Below are positions 25,508 to 50,773 of a DNA stretch of 64,000 nucleotides, one piece after another. Where the stretch lies: contig CM067533.1 of assembly GCA_034509925.1 (NCBI GenBank), forward strand, positions 9,737,156 through 9,801,155. Reading direction: 5' to 3'. The stretch is from Hirudinaria manillensis (Eukaryota > Annelida > Clitellata > Hirudinida > Hirudinidae). Each line of letters begins with the position of its first letter. The stretch's first letter is position 1. The position numbers were made by a program, and so were the translations under genes. The notes beneath the pieces are model-generated. The model was not told the origin of the DNA and did not search any database. It saw only the letters and a program-made list of their open reading frames with translations.

Positions 25508-26321
25508 TTAATATTCCAACAGCAACGCCAGAATTGGTCCAATAAGGAACAGCATTACAACTGGAACAACAGATATTCCCAAAGAACTTGGAGTAATGAT
25601 TTTCACTGAAAAATAAAAAAATAATTTAAAAAATCATAAAATATTCATATATTTATTTCATAACATCAAATGAAATAAAAAAATAATTACAAAATATTCT
25701 AATAAATGTGTTAAAAGTTGATAATTTTCACTCAAAATAAAAGTGGGTTTAGAGATCAAATTAGTGTCTGCTGATATTCCCTGTTTTATTTTGAGTTTAA
25801 AGTAACAAATGATAGTGACATTTAAATATTTATTGATTCAAATATTTTATTAAATTTATTAGCAACTTATTATAACAACTTCATAAAAATAATTAATTAA
25901 GATAAAAACATAAAAACAACTGATAAATAATCTTCAACTAACTTGTTGTAACTGGAAGAACTTTCAATTGAAACTGTTTGTTGGTGTCCGAACCTCCACA
26001 CATCGACACATAATTCCCCTCATCTTCCTTCTTGCATCCTTTCAATGTTATGTTCAAAGCACTTCCATCCACCTCATACCTTTCAACATATTTATCAACC
26101 AATACACCATTACGTACAATTAACCCTCCTCCTTCTTCTCCAAGTTTTTTAAACCTGCAGTTCTGAAAGCCTTCAGGACATGGACAATCAAAGCTGATGC
26201 TGCTACCTTCATAACAGGTCAAAACAGGTATTATAGAGGAAACTGAAAATAATTTAATGACATCATCATTAATCAATAACATCAATATTGTTGTAAATAA
26301 AAGTATTGGATGTTGTATCAC
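25508..26321 (-). CDS. Ig-like gene 1: single V-like domain with C-terminal membrane exon
   Basis: The V exon 26242-25943 joins in phase to a membrane exon 25605-25508. The domain reads LTCYEG, then SFDCPCPEGF, CRFKK, NITLKGC and DEGNYVSMC. These give six cysteines and an Ig V-type F-strand motif, with a Phe where the usual C-strand Trp should be. The last exon encodes a hydrophobic segment (VVPVVMLFLIGPILALLL) ending in Glu-Tyr-stop, so the product would be membrane-anchored with almost no cytoplasmic tail, or possibly GPI-linked. The frame is open upstream to 26321 through a leader-like stretch (ILLFTTILMLLI), but it begins with GTG, not ATG. The true leader may be on an upstream exon, because the V exon has a good TTTTCAG acceptor, or the gene may be decaying. 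It is the closest paralogue of gene 2 at 31.9 kb. Confidence 0.65.
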
Positions 26322-29305
26322 ATCACTGCAGCAGCTTGTGTTTATCGATGGTGAATATCAATGATTCAAAACATTAAGTAATAACTTACACAATTAAGGA
26401 TATTTGATTAAATCGTGAAATATCATCAACATTTTCAAAATTTTCAATAACGGGATTTAAACACTTTTTTTTGTCAAAACACAACGAAGCTTACGAAGAT
26501 GCGGCATCGAACGACTTTGCAAAACGGCGACTAATTTTATTGCTTTATCTACTTCCAATCAATACATGAAAAGTAAATCGATTAATTTATTTGAACTAAA
26601 TAAGTTATATAATTCATTCTTATCTACAGAATTGTTATTATTAATTAATAAAACTATTAACCTCATTACGATTTCTAAATTATATTCGGCCTCTTAAGTT
26701 AAATCATTATGATGGCACACGTCATCGCTCTTTAAAAAATGCAACACAGAAACCGAATGCGGCCACGAAGCAGACGAGCAACCTTCGTCCAAAAACAATA
26801 AATTAAATAAAAGGAAGTTTAAAAGTCTAAAAACATTTCAAATTGCGATCTATTTTTGCTTTATTAAGTGGCAACGGCGAACCAGAATCGGCAGAGAACG
26901 TTACTCGTTATAAAGTCGGTCATTATTAGGTTATAATATTTCATGGCAGACGAGATACATCAACAGGCTCAGTGAAAAGAGATAGTTTATGAGAGGAAGT
27001 TATTTTAAATTATAATTTCTGTTTGCTATATTTATGTTTTTAATATTCCTTTTTATTATCTTTGGTGAACATAGCTTCACATTGCTCTCTGAAGTGAGAT
27101 TTAAAAAGTATATAAGAAATTTCTTGTGTAATTCTATAGTTTTGTGATAATTTGTTATTGATTCAGAAGTAATATTATTTGTTTGCTGTGCTATCCATAT
27201 CTATATAATATATATAATATGTATAATATATATAATATATGTAATATATATAATATATATAAGTTGTTTATTAACCTTAACTTGGAAACCTTAAACAGTA
27301 ACAGTGACAGATGGTAAGGCGCAGAAAACACAAGAGACCACAAAAACCAGTACATAATAAAAATTTCTGTCCACCTTCGTCCATTTGTATTTATGTACTA
27401 CGTCGACATCTTTCATGACCGAAAATTATAAGCTCGAAGTAATAATATTTAATAATATCAATGTTGTTGTAAATAAAAGTAATTAGTTTATGTTAGATAT
27501 CATAATGGCCATTTGTTTTCAATAATTTATATTAATGTTTCAAAACATTAAAAAATTGTTAATTAAGAATATCTCGATGATATTTCACAATGTCAATTAA
27601 TAAAACTATTAACATCATTGCTATTAATATAAACTAAGTTGTATTATAAATTACATTATATAATTACATAATTAAATTATATAATATTATAAATCGTTGC
27701 TCGATCTTACTTCTAACTGCAACATAAAAACATGCTCACCCGTATTAATTGTAGACACGAAGAAGATAATACATAATGTTTGGCTTGTCGACCACAGTTT
27801 CTTAAAACTTAAAAACAATCACTTCTTGAACTTAATAAATAATTAAATTCATAATTTATATAATTTATGTAATTCTTTAAGAATATTTGTTTTAAATTAT
27901 AAATTAAACAAAGGGTAGAAAAAAAGATATCTGAAGCAGCACAACGCTCGATGCAATCAAGACGCTCGTTGCTCGTTCAGAATTGGCAAAGAATTTTTAT
28001 TGTTCTTTTGCAAACATTTGCTAAAATATTGCAAAAGTAATGCACTTATCCAACATTAAATAATTTATTAGTCAGATAATTTGAATGACAAGTTGTGTGC
28101 TTAAGTGCCGCTGTGAGTTTCATTATTAACCTACTGGAGAAAAGCACTCAGTTTGAAAATCAGAAGGAACAAACTCAGTGAAAAAGATGATGAAAGATAG
28201 TGCTTCTGAATTACAATTCCTATTTAATTATATCTACAAAAATATCTTTGTTTCACCATAATAGACATCATTTCAAAATCATTTCTCTTTAATGAGATGT
28301 TGATAATATCTAACAACTTTGCACTTAGACATATTTGAGAGCCACTTCTTTAGAATATATGTTTTTATAATAATGTTTATGTTACTGATTATTCGTTGTT
28401 CTTCACATATCTTCCTGAAGGTTATCTTTCGTTATCTTTAACTTTATAAAGTTACAAAACGGGTGGTTAAATCAAAACAATGGTTTTTGACAAACAAACA
28501 ACAAACCTTCCATTCTTTTCATACTTGTTATAAATTGCCGACATTTTCCAGACCAACAGGAGACGGATAAATTACATCATGAGTTTAATATTAAATCCAA
28601 CTTAATTTCTGCAAAATATTTTTAAAATCATTCCAAAATTATTTAACGAAAATTAAAATCCTAAAACTATGATCATTATAAACAACAATACATACCTAGC
28701 TCTTTCAATAAATGATTTATATTAAAATAAAATAAAAATTTCACTTAATAATCAATGTTAAAATTTAATTAATAAAATTTTATTATATTATATAACATGA
28801 ATACTATATTAAAAACGTTAACGCAGTAAATAAATTATAAAAAACTGGATATTCTGAACAGTTGAATAAAAAATAATTAACATTAAAAATTAAATTAAAA
28901 TTATACTTTATTTTTTTATGTGGCTCAACGGAACAACTAAAAATATCGTTTACCCAGAGGCATCGTGAAATTGTAGAAATTAACATATTAGAAAATGTGG
29001 TTTTTTTTATCACTTCTTTCTTCAAAATACAAAATAATCAAAACTTACGATATATTTATTCATGCAGTCAATTAATAAGCAAACAAGCATGGTAAAACCG
29101 GACAAGTCACCCCTGATGCATAATTATCCAAGCCCCTCCCTCCTTGTTAAGATTTGCATAACTAGTCCCTCAATGAGTTAATGACAAGTTGTGCTTAAGT
29201 GCTGGTTCGACTACTTTTTCTCATCATCCATCTATCAGAGAAGAGCACGAACAAAGTCATTGAATAAGATGGTTCAATATAATGCTTGTGAATTGTAATT
29301 CCTCT
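26322..29305. other. AT-rich spacer, left copy of segmental duplication 1
   Basis: No gene seen. Blocks here recur at about 32.1-34.1 kb. For example 27.7-28.1 resembles 32.15-32.57, 28.14-28.6 resembles 33.37-33.89, and 28.8-29.0 resembles 33.89-34.05. Around 27.43-27.50 kb a short piece resembles the leader region of Ig-like genes 1 and 2, probably a remnant of a further copy. An (AT)-rich repeat lies at 27205-27262. Confidence 0.6.
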
Positions 29306-29655
29306 TTAATGGTATTCCCGATCAATAAGCCTCCCTTATTGTCGCTCAAAACATAGGAGCAAGCATAGCTCCACCCCCGTGCATATCATTAATAAATATA
29401 GCTAATTTGTTAAATAAATTGAATGATATGTTTTAAGAAAACATATGTATAATATATTAAAAATACGTTAAATATTTTTAAAATACTAAATCAAGCAAAA
29501 CCCTAACCCTATCCAAAACCTTTTTCCATTTAAAATTCAATTAATCTTCGTTGTTCTCACCAACGATTTCATAATGATATGCACGGGGGGGTGGAGCTAT
29601 GCTTGCTCCGATGTTTTGAGCGAAAGTAAGGGGGGCTTATCGATCGGGAATACCA
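29306..29655. repeat. Inverted repeat of about 80 bp flanking a 190-bp spacer
   Basis: The arm near 29306-29386 is nearly the reverse complement of 29575-29655; both contain GAGCAAGCATAGCTCCACCC or its complement. The right arm continues directly into the reverse-transcriptase fragment, so the left arm is an inverted piece of the same retrotransposon. This is the shape left by 5' inversion during LINE integration, or by two head-to-head fragments. Confidence 0.8.
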
Positions 29656-29906
29656 GGGTTATGTTTAATGATGTGTGTTCTTCTGATGTTCTTAATGATT
29701 ATAGTATTCCTCAAGGTTCTATACTGGGTCCCCCTTTGTTTCTTATTTATATTAATGATTTTCAATGTTCTTCTGACCTAATCAAAGTGTTATTATATGC
29801 TGATGATATCGTTATTTATACATCTGGAAAAAACATAAATAATCTACATCACATCTCCCCAGGTCACCAACAACATTTAAATCTAGTTAAGAACTTACCT
29901 CTTTAA
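29574..29906 (+). pseudogene. Non-LTR retrotransposon reverse transcriptase fragment
   Basis: An open frame of about 110 codons contains SIPQGSILGPPLFLIYINDF and LLYADDIVIY, the B and C motifs of non-LTR (Jockey/CR1-like) reverse transcriptase with the catalytic YADD box. Upstream and downstream domains are missing, and the frame ends soon after YADD. It is a dead fragment of a LINE, not a host gene. An inverted copy of its first 80 bp lies at 29306-29386. Confidence 0.85.
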
Positions 29907-30689
29907 GGAGTGCTTCCCTTCTAAGATTACTGGAGAGACTCAACCTTTAAACTCTGTTAATAAATAAATGGTGACCATCTGTAATTCAAATTAGGTTAGG
30001 GTTAGATCTTACCATGAAATCTTTTCTCTTTAAGCAGATCACACAGTGCTGCTAAATGGCTTTGTGGAATGCTTCATAAACTTTACGTTATTACTATTAT
30101 TACTACTATTATTATTATTAATAATGCAATAAACCACCAAGTTAAAAGATAAATTTAATAATAATTCTTAAGTTATAGAATCCTAAACAACTCTACAGAA
30201 AGCCAATAGCAATTCGATTGCAAAGCAACATAAGTTTAAAAAATAATCTTAGTGAAATGAAGCTTCCATTTTTTCAACTTAATCAACATAATCAACTTTA
30301 GGTCAAGACGTATTGCCCGGCATCACTTTCTTTGCAAGTTTGCAAGGCTATATGAGTCTTGTTGTAGCCAAACTGATATTTATTATTTAATACACCTTTT
30401 CTAACAACTCTTCCATTAGTCTCTTCAAATTTGTAAGAATTCATTTTTCCAGATCAGCCGTGACATTCAAATGATACATTACCACCAATTGAATATTTTA
30501 TTCAAAATGAATGGAATCATAATCAATATAACATAAAGTAATTGAGGCACAACAATATTCCCAATCAGTTTTAAAAATCATTGAAATGCAAAGGCGTAAC
30601 TTGATTAATCGTGCTTAACTACTTGTTGTAAAGCTGAGTGCAAGCTCTAAGTTAAAGTTAGAAAAACATTCAATTGATTTGGAAGCAAA

Positions 30690-31894
30690 TTAATATTCCA
30701 ACAGCAACACCAGAATTGGTCCAATAAGGAACAGCATTACAACTGGAACAACAGATATTCCCAAAGAGGAACTTGGAGTAATGGTTTTCACTGAAAAATA
30801 AAAAAATAATTTAAAAAATCATAAAATATTCATATATTTATTTCATAACATCAAATGAAATTTAAAAAAAAATTACAAAATATTCTAATAAATGTGTTAA
30901 AAGTTGATAATTTTCACTCAAAATAAAAGTGGGTTTAGAGATCAAATTAGTGTCTGCTGATATTCCCTGTTTTATTTTGAGTTTAAAGTAACAAAGTAAC
31001 AAATAGTGATATTTAAATATTTATTGATTCAAATATCTTATTAAACTTACTTTAAACTTATTATAAAGCTTGAACAACTTCATCAAAATAATTATCTATA
31101 TAAATAAAAATGCAATGTGTTTGTAACATGCAAACGTTCTCTGAAAGTACTTAACCAATTGCTTTGAAATTTTGACACAACATAGTGCTTGATTAGAGGA
31201 GTGTTTTTTTTATATAGGTTTCATATATGTGCCACAACTACAGCATGTAAAAATACGTTTTTTTTTCGAAAATCCTGCCATCTTGCCACGATAACGTCAC
31301 GGCCTAATCTATGTAAATAAACTTTAGCGAGACATTAAAAAGCTTAAAATAACGTAATAACTCAAGCAAATTTGTGAAATTGTAAAAATAAACATATTTG
31401 AAAATTTCTTTCTTATAAAATTAATAATCAGATTGAGCCACAGCAATGCGTGGCTGGGCACCACTAGTTTAAAATAAAAACAATTGAAAAATAATGGTCT
31501 TCAACCAACTTGTTGTTCCAACTGTAGGGAGTTTAAGAACTTTCAATGCAAACTGTTTATTTTTGTCCGAACCTCCACACATTGCTACATAAACTTCCTC
31601 ATCTTCTTTCCTGCATCCTTTCAATGTTATGTTCAAAGCACTTTCGTCCACCTCAAACTTTTCAACATATTTATCAACCAATACACCATCACGTACAATT
31701 AACCCTCCTATTCCAAGTTTCTTAAACCTGCAGTACTGAAAGCCTTCAGTACATGGACAATCAAAGCTGATGCTATCACCTTCATTACAAGTCAAATGAA
31801 GTATTTTAGAGGAATAAACTGAAAATAATTTGACAACATCATCATTATTCAGTAATATCAATATTGTTGTAAATAAAAACGTTAAATATTTCAT
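30690..31894 (-). CDS. Ig-like gene 2: leader, single V-like domain, membrane exon
   Basis: This is a tandem paralogue of gene 1. It reads from an ATG at 31894 through a hydrophobic leader (FLFTTILILL) into the V domain with no stop, to the donor after 31510, then a membrane exon 30790-30690; about 161 aa in total. Alternatively the V exon starts at the TTTTCAG acceptor at 31818 and the leader lies elsewhere. Domain motifs are LTCNEG, SFDCPCTEGF, CRFKK, NITLKGC and DEEVYVAMC. The membrane exon encodes GISVVPVVMLFLIGPILVLL with a two-residue tail. The intron between the two exons carries a Helitron (31095-31467) absent from gene 1. Function is unknown; a surface recognition role is inferred only from the architecture. 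Confidence 0.7.
31095..31467. mobile_element. Short non-autonomous Helitron
   Basis: The element begins TCTATATAAATAAAAATG and ends CTAG, inserted between A and T as Helitrons do. Just before the end is a hairpin, GCCAC-loop-GTGGC, about nine bases upstream of CTAG. No coding capacity is present in its 373 bp. The matching intron of gene 1 (about 25.87-25.94 kb) shows the uninterrupted target, which supports the boundaries. Related hairpin ends occur near 34079 and 39602. Confidence 0.85.
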
Positions 31895-34034: not shown

Positions 34035-34197
34035 ATTAGAAAATGTGTGTTTTTTCATTTCTTTCTTTTCAATTTAATCAGATTGAGCCACGTTCACGCA
34101 TGAGCGGGCAAAATAATCAGAACTTACGAGAACTTAGGCAAAGGATATCATTCATGACGTGCAGTCACTTAATAAGCAAACATGCATTAATAAGCAT

Positions 34198-34507
34198 CCG
34201 TCTGGCGCAGTCAGTTCCAAACTGAAAACTTACCTATTTATGAAATCCTATTGATACTATTTCTTTTTCTTTCCTCCCATATTGTTTTATTTTATTTTAT
34301 TTTGTTACTAATAAATTTCTCATTCCCTTCCAGATATTCATTTTAATTCTTCATTTTAATTCCAATTTTATTCCTTAATTTCCTTTCGTTTTATTAATTT
34401 AGCTGCCAGTTTTATGTCTGATGGTACTGTTTGTCGGTGCCCTTACATACCTTTGGGATAAAATGGAGCACGTTAAAAATTGGCTAAATAAATGTAAATG
34501 TAAAATG
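34198..34507 (+). mobile_element. SINE-like retroposon insertion with target-site duplication
   Basis: About 310 bp are present here but absent at the paralogous position near 39720. They are flanked by the direct repeat TAAGCAT (34191-34197 and 34508-34514). The left end contains TGGCGCAGTCAG, close to a tRNA-type A box. The right end is an A/T-rich tail with repeated AAATGTA. I call it SINE-like; a 5'-truncated LINE 3' end is the alternative. Confidence 0.7.
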
Positions 34508-34591
34508 TAAGCATTACTTCAGTGACGACTTGAAACTTTTTTAAGCTGTTCTTAAACTTATTCTGATTCTTAAAGTAATGTGTCTCAAGTC

Positions 34592-34668
34592 AACCCTAAC
34601 CTCAACCTTAACCTTAACCTCAACCTTAACCTCAACCTCAACCTTAACCTTAACCTTAACCCAAGATA
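34592..34668. repeat. CCTTAA/CCTCAA hexamer array
   Basis: About 13 telomere-like hexamers. The duplicated copy at 39807-39842 holds only about 6, so the array length has changed since the duplication. Confidence 0.9.
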
Positions 34669-35099
34669 ATCAAAGCGTTCGACTTTGACATAAAGAATTT
34701 ATGTCAAAAAAAAAATTAAAATAATTTTAATTGGTTAAACAATTTAAAGACTACAAAATGTTTTAATTTATGAGCAGATATTGCAGAAGAAAATTGAGCA
34801 AGGACAGCATTTCAATAGGAATCAATGTTTTCTTGGAACAACCACCTGATTTAATTGAAAACGAAATGATTTAAAGAATTATTTGTTCACAAATATCGGC
34901 CTAATTCATGCTATGATAGGAATTCTATTAAATATATTCAGGCATTCATGTTTTAGCAACTATTAGTCATAATAATAACGATTATAATAAGAGGATTTTT
35001 CCAGAAAAACTGCATAAGTTCATTTACAAATGTGCCATAAGCATGAGCAACAGGGATGCTTATTTCAATAATATTCTTTTGATTATTACTCAATACTAC

Positions 35100-35133
<34 letters not shown>

Positions 35134-35183
35134 TCGATAATTATTCAATATTGTTTCATTAAGAGAAATTTGGTTTCAGTAAC

Positions 35184-35468
35184 CTGTGTGTACGACCGTT
35201 TCCTTGGTAACATTTAAACTTAATGAATGTTTGTGATCGTCACACAACCAAAGATATGTTCCGCTATCATCTTCAGTGCAATCTTTCAATATGACTGAAG
35301 TTTTGTTTTTGTTCAGTTTGAATTTAGGATATTGATTGTTGACTTCGCCATTTTGTACGATGACGTCTCCTTTTTTATTCTCAAATCTTGAGGAATCAAT
35401 CTTTTCAGGACAACACGGACACACAAAGGATACTTCACCACCACTCGTACATTGAAGTGACTCACCTT
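35184..35468 (-). pseudogene. Orphan Ig V-like exon
   Basis: A single V-like domain of the cluster family with LQCTSG, SFVCPCCPE, RFENKK (in place of CRFKK), VILKDC and DDSGTYLWLC. It ends at a donor after 35184 (phase 1, as in the other V exons). It lies downstream of the membrane exon of gene 3, and I find no leader or membrane exon to go with it. Its 5' edge is unclear, with an in-frame stop shortly upstream. The paralogous block at 40.1 kb has lost this exon. It may be an alternative exon or the remnant of another gene. Confidence 0.5.
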
Positions 35469-35589
35469 TGAATGGAAATATTGACTACTTCACTTTTTCT
35501 AAACCCTGATAAAAGCTCATCTCACTTCGTCAACAATTATTTTTGTACATTTCTCGTTATTTATAAATAAATAGGAATATCAACGTAAT

Positions 35590-36434
35590 TCAAATCTTCT
35601 TAAATCTATAAACGAATAAATAATAAAATGAATCAAAATCGAAAACAAAAAAGCCAAGGGTAATACGAACGACAACAGCCGCAACTTCAACAATAACTTG
35701 AACACCTAAGTTGTTGACGTCTACAAACAAATTAAACATAATTAAAAATTAAAAATTAAACATAACAGTCTCCAAATAAACTCATAAACCATTTTTGTTA
35801 ACAGTTAACTTCCGACAAAAAACCAATCCTCAACCTACTTGTGGCTACAATGACTGCCAAACTAGTCTGTAAGTTAGTATCAGACCCCCCACACATTGCT
35901 ATGTAGTCTCCTTCGTCATCTTTCTTACATCCTTTCAATATTATATCGGAATTACTCTCACCCAAGCGATACTTTTCCTGGAATTCTGCGCTCAACGCAC
36001 CATTGCGTAGAATGTTTCCTCCCTGGAACAGCTTCTTGAACCTACAATTTTTAAACCCTTCAGGGCATGGACAGGTGAAGGTGACGTCATCGCCTTCTGT
36101 GCATTTCTTCTGTTCCGTTTTTCCATCTTCAGAAAATGCAAAATGATCTTAAAACTCGAATAATTTCAATGCAAATGCATTGAAAGGCATTAAAAGACTT
36201 TTTTTTGTAAATAGTTTAAAAAGTTTGTTTGCCGCCATTTCCAGCCTCTAGACGTATGCACAAGATTGAACATACTGATGAAAAAAAACTAGCAAATAAT
36301 AAAATATTGTAATAATATCTATAATAAAAATAATAATATCTTTATGCGTCGTTTCACATTCACGAAACTTGATTTTCATATAAGTTTGGAGACAAACTTT
36401 GTCAGTGCAAAAAGTTTGTTCTTGCAAATGAATA

Positions 36435-36470
<36 letters not shown>

Positions 36471-36614
36471 GTAATGATAATGGTAATGATAATGATAATA
36501 ATAGTAACTGCTTGTGTAACTAACTAAATAAGCTGAATACCTGCTATGACAATGAAAAGCAGGACAATAAGAGTTACTAATCGCTGATTAGTCCAAGACT
36601 TCTTCCGACGAAAG
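35590..36614 (-). CDS. Ig-like gene 3: leader exon, single V-like domain, membrane exon
   Basis: Three exons join in phase: 36614-36541 (hydrophobic core RLVTLIVLLFIVIA), 36126-35839 (V domain: QKKCTEG, TFTCPCPEGF, CRFKKLF, IILKGC, DEGDYIAMCGG) and 35720-35590 (membrane segment VQVIVEVAAVVVRITLGFFVF, then a short cytoplasmic tail ending in FKKI). The leader exon has no in-frame ATG, so the start codon should be on a further upstream exon that I cannot place. The C-terminal Lys-Lys motif could act in ER retrieval, but that is speculative. Gene 4 at 41 kb is its duplicate. Confidence 0.65.
36429..36506. repeat. (AAT)n/(GAT AAT) microsatellite
   Basis: Trinucleotide array between the leader and V exons of gene 3. 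The duplicate at 40906-41049 is nearly pure AAT with AAC variants and about twice as long. Confidence 0.95.
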
Positions 36615-36753
36615 CTTTATTAAAAGACGATCATAGATGTTTAGAAAATGGATTTGAATTTTACAATTTAAGATTAAATATTATTTAAATTTAGGATTCC
36701 AATGAACAAGTTAAGACTTGAATAAATTAAGTAGTACCCCTCGTAAATGAATT

Positions 36754-36895
36754 ATTTTATTTTTATTTATTGGACACAATTGAAGGGCCCATTGGGCCAC
36801 TAATACAATTGCAAGCGGAACAGAGAACATCGACCGGCGTGTACACAGGGGCAGCATTAAGTGTAATTTACAGATTAAGTGTAATTTAAATAGCT
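36754..36895 (-). mobile_element. Truncated retroposon 3' end
   Basis: A segment containing GGGCCCATTGGGCCACTAAT is present here but absent at the duplicate position near 41290. Read on the minus strand it ends in an AATAAAAATAAAAT tail, as expected for a 5'-truncated LINE or SINE. No target duplication could be fixed. Confidence 0.5.
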
Positions 36896-37595
36896 ATTAA
36901 AATCCATTAATAATTAATTAATAAATAATCAACAAATATATTCTTAGATTTCCTTTCCCACTCCCCCCTTCCTTCCGAAAGTTGAGATTTTAACCTTGAC
37001 GTTTCAATGGAAAGCATTGCTTGAGAAATATTTACGGAAATGACGTAAATAGCAAATGACATATGTTTTTGTTTTAGAATAAAACTCATAACGGAAACAC
37101 ACATTAATTAATTAATAAATCAAGTTAATTAAATTAATAATTAATTAATTATAAATATAAATTAATAATTAATATCGACGATCGATCATTTAATATTTAT
37201 TACTTGCAGATAAAATGAAGTTTTCGCAGTTTCGTAGGAACGCTTTTTATTTTTGTTTCTAGAAAGTTTCAAGTCTGCCGACTTCTCACGCCAGAGGTCG
37301 CTTTGTTTTATGTGTTGACAAAGAAAGTCTGATTTTAAGTTTATTTGCAATTAATATTTGAAATAACAAGTCACATGATTTAAGACGACATACGTAACAT
37401 TCCTAACAACCTAACAACCTTAAATTATTGTGAAAAGCTGAATAGCTTCTAGTAATATATGAATAGGAGCTGTTGATCAGGAGTTTTAAAAATAGAATTA
37501 TTTATCGATCCGTCCAAAATATGTGATATCATCAATCAGAGGATTTGATATGAGTTTATTTTGTTGTTTTTTAAGTTCATTTGTTTCATTGTTTT

Positions 37596-37763
37596 TGTTG
37601 TATCTTGAATTACTTGCTATATAATTAAGGACTACTTTGGGAATTGGAGATACTAAGCTACTTTATTACCAAGAATGTGCCTTTGCACTAGCCTCAAAAA
37701 GATTCTGTATATTATCGTAATAAACTTAATTAATAATAAATATAATTACTTTTACCCACAACA
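37596..37763 (-). repeat. Long terminal repeat (3' LTR of the minus-strand element)
   Basis: A 168-bp repeat bounded by TGTTG and CAACA. It carries no visible coding sequence and is adjacent to the polypurine tract at 37764-37773. It matches the other LTR except for a T/C difference in the TATTA(T/C)CGTAAT segment. Confidence 0.95.
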
Positions 37764-37771
37764 CCTCCCCC

Positions 37772-39283: not shown

Positions 39284-39295
39284 CCTCGTCGCCAA

Positions 39296-39463
39296 TGTTG
39301 TATCTTGAATTACTTGCTATATAATTAAGGACTACTTTGGGAATTGGAGATACTAAGCTACTTTATTACCAAGAATGTGCCTTTGCACTAGCCTCAAAAA
39401 GATTCTGTATATTACCGTAATAAACTTAATTAATAATAAATATAATTACTTTTACCCACAACA
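39296..39463 (-). repeat. Long terminal repeat (5' LTR of the minus-strand element)
   Basis: The partner of the LTR at 37596-37763, identical except for one base. The near identity implies a recent insertion. Confidence 0.95.
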
Positions 39464-39806
39464 GTTTTATGTACATAATTGTCTGTTTAATATTCTACAT
39501 GTTCAATCTGCTATATGTTCTTTCAATTGCTTTGATATCTTAATAAACTCATTAAAAAAAATAGAATGTGTTTTTTCATTTCTTTCCTTTCAATTTAATC
39601 AGATTGAGCCACGTTCACGCATGGGCGGGTACACTCAGTACAAAATAATCAGAACTTACTGTACTGACAAAGGACATCATTCATGGCGTGCAGTCACTTA
39701 ATAAGCAAACAAGCATTAATAAGCATTACTTTAGTCACGACTTGAAACTTTTTTAAGCTGTTCTTAAACTTATTCTGATTCTTAAAGTAATGTGTCTCAA
39801 GTCAAC

Positions 39807-39842
39807 CCTAACCTCAACCTTAACCTTAACCTCAACCCAAGA
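39807..39842. repeat. CCTTAA/CCTCAA hexamer array, short copy
   Basis: About six hexamers in the right copy of duplication 2, against about 13 in the left copy at 34592-34668. Confidence 0.9.
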
Positions 39843-40126
39843 TAATCAAAGCGTTCGACTTTGACATATAGAATTTATGTCAAAAAAAATTAAAATAATT
39901 TTAATTGGTTAAACAATTTAAAGACTACAAAATGTTTTAATTTATGAGCAGATATTGCAGAAGAAAATTGAGCAAGGACAGCATTTCAATAGGAATCAAT
40001 GTTTTCTTGGAACAACCACCTGATTTAATTGAAAACGAAATGATTTAAAGAATTATTTGTTCACAAATATTGGCCTAATTCATGCTATGATAGGAATTCT
40101 ATTAAATATATTCAGGCATTCATGTT

Positions 40127-40906
40127 TTAGCAACTATTAGTCATAACAGCCACAACTTCAACAATAACTTGAACACCTAAGTTGTTGACGTCTACAAACA
40201 AATTAAACATAATTAAAAATTAAAAATTAAACATAACAGTTTCCAAATAAACTCATAAACCATTTTTGTTAACAGTTAACTTCCGACAAAAAACCAATCC
40301 TCAACCTACTGGCTACAATGACTGTCAATTTAAATAGACCTTCAATCTTTTCGGTAGTATTAGACCTCGAACACATTGCTGTGTATTCTCCTTCGTCATC
40401 TTTCTTACATCCTTTCAATATTATATCGGACTTACTCTCACCCAAGCGATACTTTTCCTTGAATTCTTCTCCCAACGCACCATCGCTTAGAATGAGTCCT
40501 TTAACCGGCTTCTTCTTAAACCTACAATTTTTAAGCCCTTCAGGGCATGGACAGGTGAAGGTGACGTCATCGCCTTCTATGCATTTCTTCTGTTCAATTT
40601 CTCCATCTTCAGAAAATGCAAAATGATCTTAAAACTCGAATAATTTCAATGGAAATGCATTGAAAGGCGTTAAAAGACTTTTTTTGTAAATAGTTTAAAA
40701 AGTTTGTTTGCCGCCATTTCCAGCCTCTAGACGTATGCACAAGACTGAACATACTGATGAAAAAAACTAGCAAATAATAAAATATTGTAATAATATCTAT
40801 AATAAAAACAATAATATCTTTATGCGTCGTTTCACATTCACGAAACTTGATTTTCATATAAGTTTGGAGACAAACTTTGTCAGTGCAAAAAGTTTGTTCT
40901 TGCAAA

Positions 40907-40952
<46 letters not shown>

Positions 40953-40971
40953 TAATAATAATAATAATAAC

Positions 40972-41015
<44 letters not shown>

Positions 41016-41155
41016 TAATAATAACAACAATAACAATAATAATAATAACTGTTTGTGTAACTAACTAAATATGCCGAATACCTGCTATGACAATGAAAAG
41101 CAGGACAGTAAGAGTTACTAATCGCTGATTAGTCCAAGACTTCTTCCGACGAAGA
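40127..41155 (-). CDS. Ig-like gene 4: duplicate of gene 3 with truncated membrane exon
   Basis: The exons parallel gene 3: leader core 41155-41082 (RLVTLTVLLFIVIA), V exon 40606-40310 (QKKCIEG, TFTCPCPEGL, CRFKKK, IILKGC, DEGEYTAMC) and a shortened last exon 40191-40127. In the last exon the deletion joins VQVIVEVVAVM to a new tail (TNSC-stop), so the membrane span is cut to about 11 hydrophobic residues. The V domain has diverged from gene 3 mostly after the F-strand (SRSNTTEKIEGLF against GGSDTNLQTSL) and in the loop after CRFKK. The product might be secreted or unstable. As in gene 3, the leader exon lacks an in-frame ATG. Confidence 0.6.
40906..41049. repeat. (AAT)n microsatellite
   Basis: Nearly 48 trinucleotide units, AAT with scattered AAC, in the first intron of Ig-like gene 4. 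It explains the poly-Asn and poly-Leu frames. Confidence 0.98.
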
Positions 41156-41939
41156 CTTTATTAAAAGACGATCATAGATGTTTAGAAAATGGATTTGAAT
41201 TTTACAATTTAAGATTAAATATTATTTAAATTTAGGATTCCAATGAAAAAGTTAAGACTTTAATAAATTAAGTAGTACCCCTCGTAAATGATTTATAAAT
41301 AATTAATGAATAATGAATAATTAATTAATAAATAATCAACAAATATATTCTTAGATTTCCTTTTCCACTCCTCCCTTCCTTCCGAAAGTTGAGATTTTAA
41401 CCTTGACGTTTCAATGGAAAGCATTGCTTGAGAAATATTTACGGAAATGACGTAAATAGGAAATGACATATGTTTTTGTTTTAGAATAAAACTCATAACG
41501 GAAACACACATTAATTAATTAATTAAGTTAATTAAATTAATAATTAATTAATTATAAATATAAATTAATAATTAATATCGACGATCGATCATTTAATATT
41601 TATTACTTGCAGATAAAATGAAGTTTTCGCAGTTTCGTAGGAACGCTTTTTATTTTTTTTTCTAGAAAGTTTCAAGTCTGCCGACTTCTCACGCCAGAGG
41701 TCGCTTTGTTTTATGTGTTGACAACGAAAGTCTGATTTTAAGTTTATTTGCAATTAATATTTGAAATAACAAGTCACATGATTTAAGACGACATACGTAA
41801 CATTCCTAACAACCTTAAATTATTGTGAAAAGCTGAATAGCTTCTAGTAACATATGAATAGGAGCCGTTGATCAGGAGTTTTAAAAATAGAATTATTTAT
41901 CGATCCGTCCAAAATATGTGATATCATCAATCAGAGTGC

Positions 41940-44900
41940 AAACTGTAAATTCGAAGTTTAAAGACACGAACCTGTGATGGTGGTAGGATGACATCCATTG
42001 TTCAATTTCAAGTAGGGAAGTGGATGACTTTTTTTGATCGAACGTTGATTCCTGTGATGATCACGATCATTGCTACTTGATTTTCACATCCCTTCAAGAA
42101 AATATTTAAAATACTTAAATATATTTCATTATTAATTTGAGAGTTTGTAAAGAACATTACGTGATAAGAACGACAAGCATTATTCGAGTCAGACTTAAGA
42201 ATCTATTTCAAGATTTATTGAAGGCATTGGTACATAAGGACATCAAATAGTGTGTCAAAGAATCAATGCAATGAATAATTCAAAACTCGACAGGAATGTT
42301 GTGCACTTCCAATAAACTACTTTCAGAATGTCGGATTATTTCTTAATGTTGACAAAGAATGAAAATTACGCAAAGAATTACTAAGAATTACTAAGCAAGA
42401 GACAAGTTGAGTTCCAAAATGCCTCCCAAGTGGCTGTTTCTTCTGCAGGAACTTTGAAGAAATGCTTCTGTGATGCTGCAATGTTCCGTTTGAAATATTA
42501 TTGCGTAACCATGGCGACGTATGTAAGCAAAGGGAATCCTTTTGATTCGAATTTAGTCAGGAGAAACAAATTTGTCTGTTGACTATGCGAAACAGGTGAT
42601 ATTGATTAATACACCTGGTTGCTTAGGTTTTCTAATGGGAGACCGATTGAAAGGGTTTCATGTTGAAATGCTGTTCAATTATGTCAATTATGAATATTAT
42701 GACTTGCATTGTTCATTGGTTCAACACCAAACTCTGGTCATTCATGACTAAAAGGTGGCCACTAGAAATTAATAAAGTACTTTTATAAATTGCAATTTAA
42801 GCTTTGGGGTTCTAAATAGCACGTAGTATTTTAAGACATTAAAATTTTAATTTTTAACATTTTTATTTTAAATTAAAATATTGACTATCATTTTATAATC
42901 CTCGATTACCGCAAACATGTTAAGACTTCACCTTTGAACTCTGGACATAAAACATTACACCACTTAAGACATAACAATGGGTGAATTGTTTTTAGGAGCT
43001 TAGAAAAGTTAAATAATAAAATCAGCAACAATGGTAATAATAATGAACTAATAATAATAATAATGACAACGCATTAATAATAAAATAATAATAATAATAA
43101 TATAAACAAGAACAACAATAACGACGCAGTATATTCTATATGATCGCAATAGATCATGCAATCAATAGATCAATAGACATTGAGAAATATAATAACAACA
43201 ATCTTTTTATGAAGTAAATGTAATTCTTTTTGCAAAGGTGAAACAAGTAACTTAAATACGTGTGGATGTTTAAGTACTCTAGTAACAATTAAACCATATT
43301 CAGAAAAACTTGAGTGCACGAATGAAGTGGTTACTGCAAACAAATGATTATATTATCTCACAATTTTTAATGGCTACAAGTGGATATGCTTCTGATAAGA
43401 TGGGAAGTTAATGACAAGTCGTAGAAATAAAGATAAAATTAGAAAAAAAAAATAAATTGCCATATTGCAGGGCAAATAAGATTACTTAAACTCTTGAGTT
43501 ATATGAAAAAGATATTCCAAATTCTTGTCGTGATGTTTCTCAAAAAAGAGAGAAACAGAGACACAGCAAAGTAAAAGTTCTTTAAAACAAAAAAGGGGTT
43601 TCAATTTAATTTACTTTCAACGTTTCAAGGACTTTCAAGTGATGTTTCATTTATTAATTTATTGCTAATTTATTAGTTAAAATTAGGCTATTATTGTTAG
43701 ATATCAGAAAATGTATTAATTAAAACCATAAACAACCGAAATCAGCTAAACAAAAACTGAAATTCAAATCAAAATTGTAATCCGATCTTTCTCGACGTAT
43801 GATCCAAATGAAATTATGAAATGCCACCTAACTACGTAAGTTTGCAAAAATAGACACATGCAATACGGCAGCAGAATCGCCAACATTTACCTGTGTTTTG
43901 CCCTCCAAACTCTTTAATAATCCATAATTCATAAATGCGTGTTTGTACAATTGTTGTTTTTTTTTTTATAAAAAACGCAAAACGAACACGCGACTCAACT
44001 TCGCAGACGATTGTGTATGTGACATGAACTGCGTTCTTTTAACCCAAAATTATTAGAAACTATTTCAAATAATTTTCTATTTCAAAAAATGTAATTTAAT
44101 AAATAATTTAAATAAATTTTATTGATTTTAACTGATAAGCTTATATATAAGCAAGTTATGTTATTAAGCAATCATTCGTTTGTTGCTACCCATCCGTTTT
44201 ATCTAAATTTCTAAAAAAATGCAATAATCAATATTTAACTGTTAATTTTAAAGAAATCCAATGTAAAATTCAACAGAATGTAGGCCGTTATCTAACAACT
44301 TAACCTTTGCAGCAAATTTCCACAAGAAAATAAATTAGATAAATTTATATTAAATTTGTTATATTAAACCTTTTTTAAGAGCAAAGGCCAAAGAATAAAA
44401 AAATCTTCATTGAAACATAATATAACATCATTAAAAATTTATAACTCTGTTTATATTCCTTTATCTTTCAGATAAACAGTAAAATTTACAAAATATTTCC
44501 ACATGATATTTTGTTGCTAAATCGAACATTTAAATCGATCGAACGAATCCTCGGCTTGTTTACGTGCTACAGTGGTCTGCAAATAAAATAGTCGCTTCGA
44601 TTTCATAACCGATACTTTGTTCGAACGACCAATGTTTTTTGTATATAATTAATTGAGGAGAAAATAATCTCTGAAGTAAGTTGAATCCCTAACAGTTAGA
44701 AGCCAAGATCGAATAATTACCTTTTTAGCATTCAATAGGCTTCAATTGCTTTGACAGCTTCTATTGACTTCTGAAGAGCCAGCTCATGAGGCACTTCAAA
44801 TTGAAATTTTATTGCTCAGCAAATAATTGCTTTGATGAGTTTTTTTTTTGTTTTCCCTGTTCTTTTATTTCATCCACTTATCTTCCACCTCCTTCGAAGT

Positions 44901-45360: not shown

Positions 45361-46739
45361 TCAACACAAACAAAATGCAGAAATTAAAAAGCTAATAACG
45401 TACAGCAGCAAAGTATGAACGTTGTTCCTGCAACACGTGTTGGAAGAATGGTTTTTGTGATTCACCTCTGAAAGAATAATCTAATTTCAAAAATTTCAAT
45501 TTGAGTTACCTCTCTCTTTATGATGCTCAACTTCCTAGCAGATGGTTGATTTTGTAATAATAATAATCATAATAATATAAAATTATAATAATAAAATTAT
45601 ATTATTATTTTATAATGTCATTTGCAATAAATTTCATGCCTTGGTTAACATTATCAAATAACTATCAAATAGAAATTATATTTCATAATTTGCATTGTTT
45701 AGAAAATCCGTAACAAAAATAACTTCACAAAGTTAGAACAAAAAGATCATCACCATCATCATCACCATCACCATCACCATCACCATCATCATCATTACTC
45801 GAGCAAACCTGTTTCGTGAAGAATCTCCAGGCTAAACTTGTTTTCCTCGATACTTTCCTCGCACATCCACCCATAAATCCCCCCATCCTCCTCACTGCAA
45901 TTCCGCAGCGTGATGTGGTCTTTGAGTTCATCGAATTCGAACCGTGGAGGGTCATTCGGTGCACCGTTGCGCGATATGTAGTCCTGGTCGTCCATTTTCT
46001 TGAATTTGCAGCGATTCAAATCATAGGCACGTGGCCTTTCGAATTTGACATTCCCACCAAAATGACATTTCAAATGATGTGCTGAATTAAATTTCTAAAC
46101 GAATTATTCTCTAAATTATGAATATTTATCATTAAAAGCTTTACCTTTAACTTTCAGTTCAGGTATGAACTCCAGGCGATACTGCCTGTTAACGTTGCAA
46201 CTGCCGCACATCCAAACGTAAGTCCCCTCGTCGTCTTCGTGACACTCCTTCAGCGTTATGTTGGTTTTGCTGTCGTTCAATTCGTACTTGGAAGGTTGAT
46301 TCACTTTGCCACGAAGGACGATGTAACCCCCTTGGAACAACTTCTTGAATCTGCAATCGTCAAACTCTTCGGGACAACAAGGACACCTGAAACTGACAGC
46401 ATTTCCTCCATGGCACTTCACTTCGTTTATTTCCCCTGGTGAAGCTGTGCACGAATTGATTATTAAAAATCACTTGTTTTTAATCACAGAATTCCAAACA
46501 TTCTCAACCTTTTCTCAAGTTTATTCATTTAAGAGACGATTAATTATGAAATATAATTTTGAAAATAAATAAATAATTTGATTTCAAACAAAACTATCGT
46601 CCGAATCCTTATAACCGCCAAAAAAATTGCAACTTAAATTAAAAATATGGTTAATTAGTAATTGATATTTATGTCTACGAGCACCTCGAACTAGGAACAA
46701 CAAGGATGGAGTATGGAATCCATTTTGAAATCACTAACC
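45361..46739 (-). CDS. Ig-like gene 5: two V-like domains and membrane exon
   Basis: Exons 46444-46145 (V1), 46081-45809 (V2) and 45467-45361 (membrane) join in phase. V1: VKCHGG, SFRCPCCPEEF, CRFKKLF, NITLKEC, DEGTYVWMCG. V2: LKCHFG, KFERPRAYDLNRCKFKK, ITLRNC, EDGGIYGWMC; it has lost the CPC cysteines. The last exon encodes VHTLLLYVISFLISAFCLC followed by stop, a terminal membrane segment with a Cys-rich end that could be acylated. A hydrophobic piece with a good donor (ILNILLSWMIGSVFG, donor after 46739) is the likely leader exon, with correct phase but no in-frame ATG. An ATC microsatellite lies just inside the intron after V2 (45746-45795). Confidence 0.65.
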
Positions 46740-47513
46740 AAAGACCGAACCAATCATCCACGAAAGAAGGATGTTTAAGATGTACTTCCGTCTGGTCGTT
46801 GAATCTAAACTTTTGCCAAATATTTCCAACGACTTGATTTAATTATTTATTTCTAGAATAACTTACTTTTATAGTATATTATTAATATTATATATATATA
46901 TCCGATTAAACGTTATTATATAACGCATCGTGTCGGATGGTCGACCATTGTTCTGGTGACCAGTCACGGTTGATTTAACATCCACTGGATTTGTGGAAAT
47001 ATTTTTGGATATAATAAACATTTATAGAAATTTTAAAATAATTTTAGCATTTGAAAGGCTAACATAATACTTAATGAATGAACTCAATAAAAGATACAAA
47101 AGAATTCTTCAAAACCTTACACTTTCATCGTGTTCAAGTCCAACATTTCACAAAAAGAACTTAAAAAAATCGATTACCAAATTTGGTTACGCATCACTTT
47201 GGTTTGAACCACCCTGGCTGTGAATGTATGCAAAATGCACAGCATAACAACCACAATAATTCTTGTAAATAATTAAAAATACGTAAATAAACCGATTTCC
47301 TGGCACCTAAAATGCCTTAGTCATCTGAGTTATGACTTATTTTGTTTATTTTAATATTTTTAATCTTTTTGCTCGATCCTTGACCCTGACCTAGATGATC
47401 GATTTTCCTAAAATTTAAAAAATAAATCTGATTTACTCTTGCCAGATATTCACTTTTACCCGAGTCTGCCTCGAAAAATTTCAAAATTTCCTTTGAAAAA
47501 TGGATATTTCTTA

Positions 47514-47610
47514 AATGTGTTTATTATTTAAAATATGTTTATTATTTAAAACATGTTTATTATTTAAAATATGTTTATTATTTAAAATATGTTTATTATT
47601 TACAAAATGT
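47514..47610. repeat. 18-bp tandem repeat
   Basis: Five copies of ATGTTTATTATTTAAAAT with single-base variants, just downstream of the Ig-like gene 6 stop. Confidence 0.9.
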
Positions 47611-47654
47611 TGGTGGAAAAGAATGTTAAAATATCTGTGAATGAATTTTAACTT

Positions 47655-48533
47655 TTATTTAAAGAATACTGTTATATTAATTCTAACAAATGAATATACA
47701 AAAAAAAAATAAATAAATGTATTTTTGTAAACAATTATTAAAAAAATAATTTCGCTGGAAACAACAGCAGCAGACATTCCAACATTTTGCTGTGGAATTC
47801 GTCGGATTTGTTGGTCCTTAACGCTAAGAAAAATAATTATAAAATTATAAAATAATTATAAAATTCGTCGGATAATAATAATAATAATAATTAGAACAAC
47901 TTTTTTAATAATTAAAAATATTTATAACTAAATATAAGTTAAAAATATTTATAATATTTAAACATATAAAACTCACTTGAAGCTGAACTTCCAGTATGAA
48001 ATGCAAAACGTCATCATCGTCGTCGTCATCATCACCACCACCACCACAACCTCGGCAGACCCAAAAGAAGATTCCTTCGTCATTGAAGTTGCAATCTTTC
48101 AAGGTGATGTGACTTTTGTTCTCTACCATTTGGTACCTGGAGCGGTTAACTTTACCATGGTAAACGATGTAACCTTCCTCGTACAGTTTCTTGAATCTGC
48201 ACCCATTGAACCGTGACGAACAGCAAGGACATGGAAACTGAACATCGCTTCCTTCCTGGCATTTGATTCGATGTGTTGGTCCAACTGCAGCATTTAATTT
48301 TCCAATTCACTCTTTTGCAATCTTTATGCATTATTTGAGGCTTTAAATAGTCTCATTTTTTATCGATGTGAGGCGATGTTGTAAGTCATATTTAATGCGC
48401 TATATAATTTAAATTTAATTTAAAAAAAATTAAAAGTTAAACTTGAAGTCAAACCTGAAGAGGTACTCACAGAAGTTGTCAGCAGAAAAACGGCGATGCC
48501 AAACCGAGTCCATGTGCTGAGAATCGGACTCAT
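47655..48533 (-). CDS. Ig-like gene 6: signal peptide, V-like domain with Gly/Asp loop, membrane exon
   Basis: The exons are 48533-48467 (ATG, then signal peptide with core FGIAVFLLTTS), 48284-47977 (V domain: IKCQEG, QFPCPCCSSRF, CRFKKLY, ITLKDC, DEGIFFWVC) and probably 47816-47655 (SAAVVSSEIIFLIIVY and a long hydrophobic tail), in total about 178 aa. After the F-strand cysteine the loop equivalent to CDR3 is a run of Gly then eight Asp, encoded by a GGT/GAT/GAC microsatellite. The membrane exon acceptor (TTAAG) is weak, so the 3' part is less sure than the rest. It is in the same orientation as its neighbours. Confidence 0.65.
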
Positions 48534-48878
48534 ATTGTCCAATTATTTTTCTTCTATTGATTCACTTAAGGTAAATATATTTTGATTTTATTACATAAAT
48601 ATATTACATAAATATATTCTGAAACTAGATGGCAGCCTAGAGATGTCAGAATTTCTTGAAATAAGAGTTTTTTAAGTCAATTATAAGCAAGAAATCTTAG
48701 CAAACGTTTGTAAATATGCGTTGTTGAATCTACGAAGCAAAGGTAAACATCGCAAGCTGTCACAAACAATGACAAAGTTCGACTCGAATGAACCCAGAGA
48801 GCAGAAAATGTTTTGCATTTCTAAACTTCTAAGAAGTCGTGGAGTTTCAAGAACGAAAAAATCTTTTTAATTTCAATT

Positions 48879-49157
48879 CTAAACGTAGAGAATGCTGGAT
48901 TTTGTTATTGTTATTGTTGTTTCCAAAGTTCGAAAAGTACAAATTTTGACTTTATTCTTGCCACAGTACCAAATGTACGTCCCTTCGTCCTCTTCGGTGC
49001 ATTCTTTGAGCCTAACGTGTGTCTTGCTGTCGACAAATTCGTATTTTATGGCGTCAAACAAAACACTGACGACGAATCCTTCGTTGGATTTCTTGAACTT
49101 GGTTCCGTTTAAAATATCGGGACCAATGATTTCAAAGCTTAAGTAATTCAGTTTCAT
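48879..49157 (-). pseudogene. Degenerate V-like exon fused to a minisatellite
   Basis: The frame retains the C-strand to F-strand part of the family (KFKKSNEGF, VRLKEC, DEGTYIWYCG). It lacks the first cysteine and the CPC motif; the exon 5' end runs into a 20-bp minisatellite (49147-49296) whose unit matches the first codons of the frame. No good donor follows the F-strand. It is probably a dead third V exon of gene 7. Confidence 0.6.
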
Positions 49158-49296
49158 TAAATCTTATTCAGTTTCATTAAATCTTATTCAGTTTCATTAA
49201 ATCTTATTCAGTTTCATTAAATCTTATTCAATTTCATTAAATCTTATTCAGTTTCATTAAATCTTATTCAGTTTCATTAAATCTTATTCAATTTCA
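49147..49296. repeat. 20-bp minisatellite at a V-exon edge
   Basis: About 7.5 copies of CAGTTTCATTAAATCTTATT with an A/G variant in some units. Confidence 0.95.
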
Positions 49297-49813
49297 AAAT
49301 GAAGGTTTAAACGTTCAAACCACCATCGTGACCTCAGGCACCAATTTTGACAAACTCTTGAAAGTTTAATTAATTATCAATTAACCAATTAATTAATTAA
49401 TTAATTAAAGTATAGTGACTTTGAGAAATCTTTGCTGGCTGGTTTGAAATGAACCTCGGACTTTGAAATCAGAAATGCAAACTTGGTGAATTGTTTTAAA
49501 ATAGACTTCTGTCTGAATAAACACTTTGAAAGAGACATCAGAGAGTTTATACTCATTACATGCTCATTGTTTTAGGTGTATTTTTTTTTTTAATTTATGA
49601 AATAATGAGAAACGCATTAAATCTGTTAACATTACTAGTCCAACTTTGTTGATAAATCGTAAAAGGCGTGTCTAAAATGTGCCAAACGTCCTGGGTCATG
49701 ATTGGATTCCGGCATAGTTGAATAATTCATTCTACAATTTCAATGAATTTCTCCTAAATTCAAGAATATCTAAAATAAAAGTTGGTTAAAAAAAATAAAT
49801 TCAAATTAATTAC

Positions 49814-50773
49814 CTTCGTGGTCGTGAACCTCCAATAGAAATCTTTTCTCGGCAAGACAAGGACTGCATTTGAGAAGGTAAATTGCTTCATCTTCCTTGT
49901 GACATTCCGACAGCGTGATTCGAGTCTTGGCGTCATCGAGTTCAAACCTGGGGTCGTTCAGTACGCCATTCAAAAGGATGAATTCCTGGCTGAATCTCTT
50001 CTTGAATTTACACTCTTCAAACTGTTCGGGAAGCGAACACGGGTTTTCGAAGCTGATGTGGTGTCCCTCGAAGCACACCAGACTGACATCTTTGCACGTA
50101 TCAGTTAATTAATATTAATAAACCAGAGTGATTAATGAATAGAATATGATGAAAACAAATACTTTATTATAATATAATATTTATAATTAAATACTAATTG
50201 AAATAATTCCATCCACTCAGAAACCTTCTTTGAGAATAATCTCCAAATTGTAATGCAAGACTTTATTCCTGCTGCAGGACCAAATATAAATTCCTTCGTC
50301 ATTTTCCTGGCAAGTCTTCAACTTGACTTGTCTCTTGTCTGCACTCAACTCGTATTTTTCATCGTCATTCAAAGCGCCATCTCTGAAGATAACGTCTCCT
50401 CCGAAAAATTTCTTGAAAATGCTAAACTCCAAATCATCATCATCAGGACAAGGATTCTCGAAGATGACGTCACTTCCTTCGTGGCATCGGAGTTCCGTCA
50501 AAACTGAACGAACGAATGAGTTTTTGGAACAATTATTTATCTTTGAATTATTTGCTATTTCCTGATTTCATGTTTGGAATCGACTTTAAATTATTGCAAC
50601 ATTTCAACTAATATTTTGAATTTAAATATTTTCAGCTAATTAAATTAATAATTTAATTGGAGTTAAAAGCTAAAAAAAATCAAATCAATCTTAAAGACCT
50701 TACCGTGGCTCTCTGAGCAAAAGCAGCCCGTCGTGACCAGCAGAATCCAGCAAGAGATGCTCAAGTAATTCAT
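49814..50773 (-). CDS. Ig-like gene 7: signal peptide and two V-like domains
   Basis: The exons are 50773-50704 (ATG, signal peptide ISCWILLVTTGCFCSES), 50503-50225 (V1: LRCHEG, IFENPCPDDDD, FKKFFGG, VKLKTC, DEGIYIWSC) and 50089-49814 (V2: LVCFEG, SFENPCSLPEQF, CKFKKRF, ITLSEC, EDEAIYLLKC), all phase 1 junctions. The second CPC cysteine is replaced by Asn-Pro-Cys in both domains. I cannot find a membrane exon downstream, so the product may be secreted, or its 3' end may include the degenerate V exon at 48.9-49.2 kb. It is the cluster member nearest to SHPRH and is transcribed away from it. Confidence 0.65.

Follow-up and report, generated by a model that had tools for sequence, protein, structure and literature searches.

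What do the small cysteine-rich exons crowded near one end of chromosome C8 of the leech Hirudinaria manillensis encode, and what might the leech use their products for? The window we analysed, 64,000 nucleotides long (C8:9,737,156-9,801,155; C8 is 10.05 Mb), carries a tandem run of immunoglobulin (Ig) V-like exons between DEPDC5 and a SHPRH-like gene, in which an earlier note, made from the letters of this DNA, saw a family of fast-evolving six-cysteine surface receptors. By profile, these exons belong to a real and sizeable family of the Ig superfamily (IgSF), for which no earlier description was found; no paper on such a leech family was among the matches listed in the open PMC literature, subscription papers and general protein databases being outside that scope. 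Our reading of its function, in which our confidence falls a little short of even, is that these are small surface proteins of recognition or adhesion, with a partner-binding outer domain (V1) and a use on coelomocytes.

Open frames and an iterated profile place 12 V-like exons, ten of them intact, on the minus strand between 25.9 and 50.5 kb of the window, where they group into seven units and two remnants (30304-30447 and 48945-49148). Their profile scores, 47-130 bits, are far above chance, and they share the consensus (L)KCxEGxxVSFxCPC(C)PEE...CRFKKLFxGGxIVRxG...KYE...ITLKxCxExDEGxYVWMCG...FxLEV. The tandem cluster in one orientation described in the earlier note is upheld and is larger than was claimed there. 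It is also one part of a wider set. A profile over the window and 17 other loci gave 73 rows, and after three rows below 40 bits were dropped there are 70 V-like exons genome-wide (at least 40 bits each), spread over 46 gene-like units, of which 24 have a pair of V exons. Most of the exons are clustered near one chromosome end, with 58 of the 70 in C8:9.397-9.788 Mb, the remainder lying at C8:0.87 Mb (2), on C2 (2), on C4 (4) and on C9 (4); tens of IgSF genes in one region, a feature of allorecognition families of the Hydractinia Alr kind, are thus present here. Genome searches with a window exon matched 67 places, with a second-domain exon 70, and with two more divergent members 58 and 45, all of these being lower bounds, and the last three queries found no places beyond loci already known.

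The earlier note had proposed a search with the V exons, and this supports their Ig nature by profile. We accept membership of the superfamily on that basis rather than as Pfam V-set, because the Pfam cut-offs are not reached: none of the eight window exons scanned attains the cut-off of any Ig family, and the matches of 54 members at E <=0.1 comprise 16 to I-set (best 0.0012), 10 to V-set (best 0.0091) and many unrelated single matches. NCBIfam returned seven unrelated families, one member each. The profile built from the ten intact exons of the window finds PDB chains of titin (7ahs, 6.7e-7), NCAM2 (2wim, 4.2e-4) and CD8 alpha (8hxs, 0.019), and the 54-member profile matches PDB Ig chains at 2e-6 (8g4l), 2.6e-6 (another chain) and 8.6e-5 (6efy), the best values being whole-chain sums over repeated domains, with single stretches weaker.

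Cysteines and splice phases were counted in 67 exons, three fragments being left out. Six cysteines, the number by which the earlier note had labelled the family, is the commonest count (30/67), but the number is not fixed, since 20 exons have eight and 17 have other numbers; the total is even in 57. Alignment columns 4, 17, 73 and 85 hold a cysteine in 65, 64, 67 and 65 exons, respectively. The F-strand cysteine is found in 65 and the B-position cysteine in 43, and an extra cysteine three columns further on is found in 64. Among 28 pairs of cysteine columns, 14-16 (p 6e-6) and 26-88 (p 8e-5) occur together at p below 0.01, with p-values that ignore relatedness. The pattern fits two core disulphides with optional further pairs, as for extracellular disulphides, and the family would thereby display a V-like domain whose cysteine pattern has been reorganised. 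RNA folding of one exon gave no signal (z 0.31).

In a midpoint-rooted FastTree of the 67 exons, many deeper nodes of which are weak, 33 exons form one clade of V1 (outer) type with support 0.84. The tree also joins four window exons, of the ten that are intact, to four from C8:9.602-9.606 Mb in clade W (support 0.977), whose members mostly have a single V domain. The D, G and Y of a D-x-G-x-Y-x-x-x-C motif each reach at least 86% in V1, in the second domain (V2) and in W. Conservation was compared in 21 V1 and 30 V2 rows, with 8 near-duplicates and 3 fragments dropped and the 8 clade-W rows kept separate; strand names are given by analogy with Ig domains. The mean majority frequency is 0.77 in V1 versus 0.47 in V2 for C/C', and 0.71 versus 0.45 for F-G/G, as against 0.44 versus 0.42 for C''-D. 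The higher C/C' and F-G/G conservation suggests to us that one face of the outer domain is retained from chromosome to chromosome; with members on four chromosomes keeping it, most members probably have one kind of partner.

The exon structure is regular where splice phase is concerned. The best-scoring donor is in phase 1 in 61 of the 67 exons and the best acceptor in 60, with about one third expected by chance, in keeping with the phase-1 V exons of the earlier note. Of the 46 units, 25 have a signal-like leader, the background rate being 19% at 800 control points taken from the opposite strand. The C-terminal scan, which sought hydrophobic exons only, of up to 90 residues, likewise gave a candidate in 25 units, with a background of 29%. 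Within the window, a leader lies close to the V exon in two of the seven units (the 50-kb unit, at 50773, and the 48-kb unit, at 48533). The 31-kb unit has a signal-like start at 31894 continuous with its V exon, an ATG that the 25.9-kb copy lacks; leader candidates of the 25.9-, 31- and 40-kb units are otherwise low-scoring or distant, and the leader scan returned none for the 36 and 46 kb units. The common leader exon of the earlier note therefore stands for two units, those at 50 and 48 kb, and the 31-kb unit has its signal-like start; for the other four the claim is not secured.

Its small tail-less C-terminal exon fared similarly. Two units have one that is well supported (25508-25605 and 30690-30790, near-identical copies), their tail-less ends reading ...GISVVPVVMLFLIGPIL(A/V)LLLEY. 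The 46-kb unit has the probable end ...SFLISAFCLC (45361-45467, one of five candidates). By eye, these three ends may be glycosylphosphatidylinositol (GPI) signals. The claim does not extend securely to the 48-kb unit, whose end is ambiguous (candidates 47683-47823), to the 36 and 40 kb units, with weak or distant candidates, or to the 50-kb unit, for which the scan found no C-terminal exon and whose product may be secreted. Elsewhere, four units on C8 and C2 have a common end consisting of ATN(P/R), a leucine-rich transmembrane (TM) segment and a basic tail. Signalling motifs in cytoplasmic tails are expected of receptors. Seven TM exons stood out by eye as clearer among the 25 candidates (three at locus L010, two at L011, one each at L012 and L021; further exons are possible). 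None of them has a tyrosine past the TM segment, though in one a tyrosine lies right at its border, and several less certain candidates contain tyrosine. Because the clearer predicted tails lack tyrosine, the protein itself probably does not signal.

The product we propose would begin with a signal peptide, followed by an outer V1-type domain and often by another V domain. It would end either in a TM segment and a short basic tail or without a tail, perhaps in the GPI manner. V1 would use its C-C'/F-G face to bind a partner carried by another cell, and V2 would be the less conserved domain; the common partner of most members might be V1 itself or a common ligand. Without signalling of its own, such a protein could serve in adhesion, as a marker on display or as a ligand. 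In clade W the V1 face appears to be starting to change in at least one copy, as would be expected if copies turn to new partners. The use we rate most likely is a role on coelomocytes in the recognition of foreign or non-self cells.

Selection differs between the bulk of the family and its young clade. By maximum likelihood, omega is significantly below 1 in five of the seven groups outside clade W (0.31, 0.33, 0.52, 0.40 and 0.25, with twice the log-likelihood difference, 2dlnL, from 5.0 to 78), and the values for the other two, 0.61 and 0.77, do not differ from 1. For clade W it is 0.84, or 0.99 without the pair discussed below, neither differing from 1; core columns give 0.55 (2dlnL 7.4) and variable columns 1.005. 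Close pairs number 43. Among the 36 that do not belong to clade W, the nonsynonymous to synonymous ratio (dN/dS) is 0.14-0.86 in 33 and reaches 1.15 and 1.39 in two L010/L011 pairs; the last shows no synonymous change. The seven clade-W pairs give 0.52, 0.61, 1.10, 1.16, 1.51, 1.92 and 2.69. Uniform hypervariability of the family is excluded by the pairwise dN/dS, the maximum-likelihood omega and the conservation of the V1 face, and positive selection across clade W as a whole is not significant. Fast evolution, which the earlier note ascribed to the family at large, thus applies to one young clade at most: there omega is near 1 and one pair exceeds its flanks, whereas most other groups are under purifying selection, and the outer domain otherwise keeps its presumed binding face. 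The locus thereby offers a case of selection differing between a conserved-face family and a young clade.

That one pair, 35852/40344 (exons 35839-36126 and 40310-40606), lies in a segmental duplication with copies at 34.5-37.6 kb and 39.6-42.0 kb, the second copy being without the second V exon. In 100-base flank steps with at least 50 aligned bases, exon and end steps left out, the copies differ by at most 2.2% in 13 of 18 steps and by 5-11% in five. Between the two exons, nonsynonymous divergence is 0.173 and synonymous divergence 0.070, and the flanks within 700 bases differ at 24 of 734 positions, so that the exon exceeds its flanks (P 3.3e-11). The changes are mainly KKLFQGGNILRNG to KKKPVKGLILSDG and GGSDTNLQTS to SRSNTTEKIEGLFK. 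The 40-kb copy is probably the one that changed, because the 35-kb copy keeps the family consensus at the KKLFQGGNILRNG/KKKPVKGLILSDG site and the 40-kb branch is longer. Relaxation alone cannot exceed the neutral rate, whereas the excess could come from positive selection or from conversion with an unseen copy as donor. Together with the two remnants, this duplication and its missing second V exon agree with the earlier note in its view that copies are being duplicated, truncated and lost.

Table 1 Features of the cluster and its surroundings; positions count from the first letter of the window.
Feature	Position	Strand	Score or remark
Leader exon, 50-kb unit (MNYLSISCWILLVTTGCFCSESH)	50704..50773	minus	phase 1
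V-like exon, 50-kb unit	50225..50503	minus	91 bits; splice sites
Second V-like exon, 50-kb unit	49814..50089	minus	96 bits; stop soon past donor
V-like remnant	48945..49148	minus	67 bits; 5' part missing
Leader exon, 48-kb unit (MSPILSTWTRFGIAVFLLTTS...)	48455..48533	minus	donor position uncertain
V-like exon, 48-kb unit	47977..48284	minus	aspartate run past last cysteine; donor by eye, phase ambiguous
V1-type exon, 46-kb unit	46145..46435	minus	130 bits, top profile score of window
Second V-like exon, 46-kb unit	45809..46081	minus	100 bits
Likely C-terminal exon, 46-kb unit (...HTLLLYVISFLISAFCLC, stop)	45361..45467	minus	hydrophobic end without cytoplasmic tail; one of five candidates
V1-type exon, clade W	40310..40606	minus	altered duplicate of 35839-36126; no second V exon
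LTR-type (long terminal repeat) element	37596-39463		168-bp direct repeats, 99% alike; between the two duplication copies
V1-type exon, clade W, 36-kb unit	35839..36126	minus	104 bits
Second V-like exon, 36-kb unit	35184..35465	minus	93 bits
Recent segmental duplication, copy 1	34500..37590		copy 2 at ~39560-41990
V1-type exon, clade W (V exon 31510-31818)	31510..31894	minus	in-frame signal-like start MKYLTFLFTTILILL upstream
C-terminal exon, tail-less (TPSSSLGISVVPVVMLFLIGPILVLLLEY, stop)	30690..30790	minus	GPI-signal-like by eye
V-like remnant	30304..30447	minus	47 bits
Reverse transcriptase fragment	29490-29903		RVT_1 5.4e-9
V1-type exon, clade W	25943..26242	minus	lacks the start codon found in 31-kb copy
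C-terminal exon, tail-less	25508..25605	minus	GPI-signal-like by eye

Both neighbours are on the same strand as the V-like exons. DEPDC5, below the cluster, is identified by the Pfam matches IML1 (8.7e-67) and DEP (1.1e-8); the gene above has Helicase_C over the cut-off with RING and PHD pieces under theirs, a pattern that fits a SHPRH-like gene. The earlier note had named membership of a known retrotransposon as an outcome that would overturn its reading. A transposon origin of the V exons was rejected, as the reverse transcriptase fragment and the LTR-type element (Table 1) adjoin V exons and never overlap them. The LTR-type element encloses a 514-codon minus-strand frame (37775-39316) with 126-nt internal tandem repeats and no Pfam match, and next to the reverse transcriptase fragment an apparent inverted repeat was noted by eye around 29312-29370 and 29570-29650. 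Inspection by eye also showed degenerate CCTTAA/CCTCAA arrays, resembling decayed telomere-like repeats, within the duplicated segment (34590-34665 and 39805-39842), and several copies of a unit like TCTTATTCAGTTTCATTAAA at 20-base spacing (49141-49290), at the upstream (5') end of the truncated V remnant. At locus L018 (~1300-2000), a long tandem array (unit like ATTGTTACAAGATGTTTGGTGA) was likewise seen just downstream of a clade-W V exon, and a short related stretch lies beside the next copy. Elsewhere in the assembly, C9:3028294-3028650 is a nuclear match to mitochondrial cox2; because its score and three in-frame TGA equal those of the mitochondrial contig C23, it is a recent mitochondrial insertion or an assembly artefact. 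On C23 (15,581 bp) itself, the protein genes recognisable by eye share one strand and run cox1-cox2-cox3-trnQ-nad6-cob-...-nad4-...-nad1-nad3-nad2, the ground pattern of annelids; cox2 was identified from a Pfam match and trnQ by ARAGORN. A GH6 match, which might have hinted at a tunicate, was not obtained, but the control genomes gave none either.

Our reading of the family has to be set against several observations. When the whole genome was searched with Pfam V-set, 55 places were listed, with 150 of the 282 candidates scored, and none of these places is in a family locus. With backgrounds of 19% and 29%, single leader and C-terminal assignments can be chance. The within-exon test of the 35852/40344 pair gives P=0.06, and gene conversion from an unseen copy could be the source of its pattern; of the 38 other pairs tested, none is clearly above its flanks, although one pair outside clade W (P 0.046) and one inside it (P 0.050) are borderline. 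Four of the 43 pairs had too little alignable flank for this exon-versus-flank test. Clade W is not above omega 1 overall (0.84; variable columns 1.005), and two of its seven close pairs are at 0.52 and 0.61. Coelomocyte killing itself is extremely broad, extending even to syngeneic erythrocytes, with sugars suggested as targets (excerpts of PMC10748772); broad, perhaps sugar-directed killing counts against a polymorphic protein system. Some window copies also look decayed, and the purifying selection in five of seven non-W groups is what ordinary adhesion proteins would also show.

The family could indeed be an ordinary, lineage-expanded set of epithelial or neural adhesion proteins with no non-self role, its V1 face being a fixed adhesive interface. 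That selection, the conserved V1 face and the seven clearer TM exons without a tyrosine past the TM would all be accommodated, but strong tandem clustering, the turnover and decay of single copies, omega near 1 in clade W and a pair with more change in the exon than in its flanks are less easily explained, and we regard this alternative as somewhat unlikely. Another reading is that the window part of the family is mostly a graveyard, with clade W made up of relaxed, non-functional duplicates of a family that functions elsewhere. The start codon missing at 25.9 kb, the leaders not located, the V2 missing at 40 kb, the two remnants and the clade-W omega near 1 are as expected on that account; its frames, however, are open, the four core cysteines are kept in all eight clade-W exons, core columns remain constrained, and relaxation alone cannot raise nonsynonymous change above that of the flanks. 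We consider it unlikely. An expansion of V-like domains in an invertebrate, for which the snail FREPs are a described precedent (excerpts of PMC11999971), might instead point to innate pathogen-recognition or decoy proteins used in a FREP-like way without self/non-self polymorphism. We judge this improbable, given that the presumed ligand face of V1 is conserved and that no pathogen-binding module turned up, though none was searched for. Very unlikely, in our estimation, is a salivary or gut surface protein co-opted to bind vertebrate host ligands in blood feeding: the species is a blood feeder and has a hirudin-family match above the cut-off on C4, but no link of this family to saliva was seen and its C-terminal exons are hydrophobic, albeit in a scan that sought only such exons, and with a 50-kb unit that may be secreted.

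We keep the reading of surface recognition or adhesion proteins, with coelomocytes as their most likely place of use. Excerpts of PMC2248247 and PMC10748772 describe the rejection of grafts by leeches and the killing of both allogeneic and xenogeneic cells by annelid coelomocytes (the latter in PMC10748772), and these excerpts name no recognition gene; the excerpts of the medicinal leech transcriptome paper (PMC2996935) do not mention such a family. An allorecognition role is possible. In its boldest form, which we hold to be quite doubtful, the end of C8 would be a leech histocompatibility region, an independently evolved counterpart of the Hydractinia allorecognition complex. The self markers or their receptors, behind graft rejection and coelomocyte cytotoxicity, would then be the V1 proteins with the conserved face and the diversifying, mostly single-V clade W, of which at least some members are tail-less. 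A mapped cluster beside two named genes, part of about 46 IgSF units, provides a concrete locus for genotyping in crosses and graft tests.

Among known systems, the Ig domains of titin/MyBP-C, NCAM2 and DIP-alpha in the PDB share profile similarity with the leech exons, mostly over the second half of the domain, although the leech exons fall below Pfam cut-offs (8 scanned), carry extra cysteines and have the B-strand cysteine in 43 of 67. The Biomphalaria FREPs, which combine IgSF and fibrinogen domains (excerpts of PMC11999971), are likewise diversified IgSF proteins of a lophotrochozoan, whereas the candidate C-terminal exons in the leech are short and hydrophobic (within a scan limited to 90 residues or fewer, and with no fibrinogen search made). 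The Hydractinia allorecognition complex has 41 IgSF Alr genes with V-set and I-set domains (excerpts of PMC11999971). Compared by description rather than by sequence, the leech family differs from it in belonging to an annelid, not a cnidarian, in its short, cysteine-rich, V-like domains, in predicted tails that are tyrosine-free or absent, and in the purifying selection on five of its seven non-W groups. Yet both have tens of genes for IgSF surface proteins in one chromosomal region, and as far as these excerpts describe it, the Hydractinia complex is the nearest described locus of such a shape.

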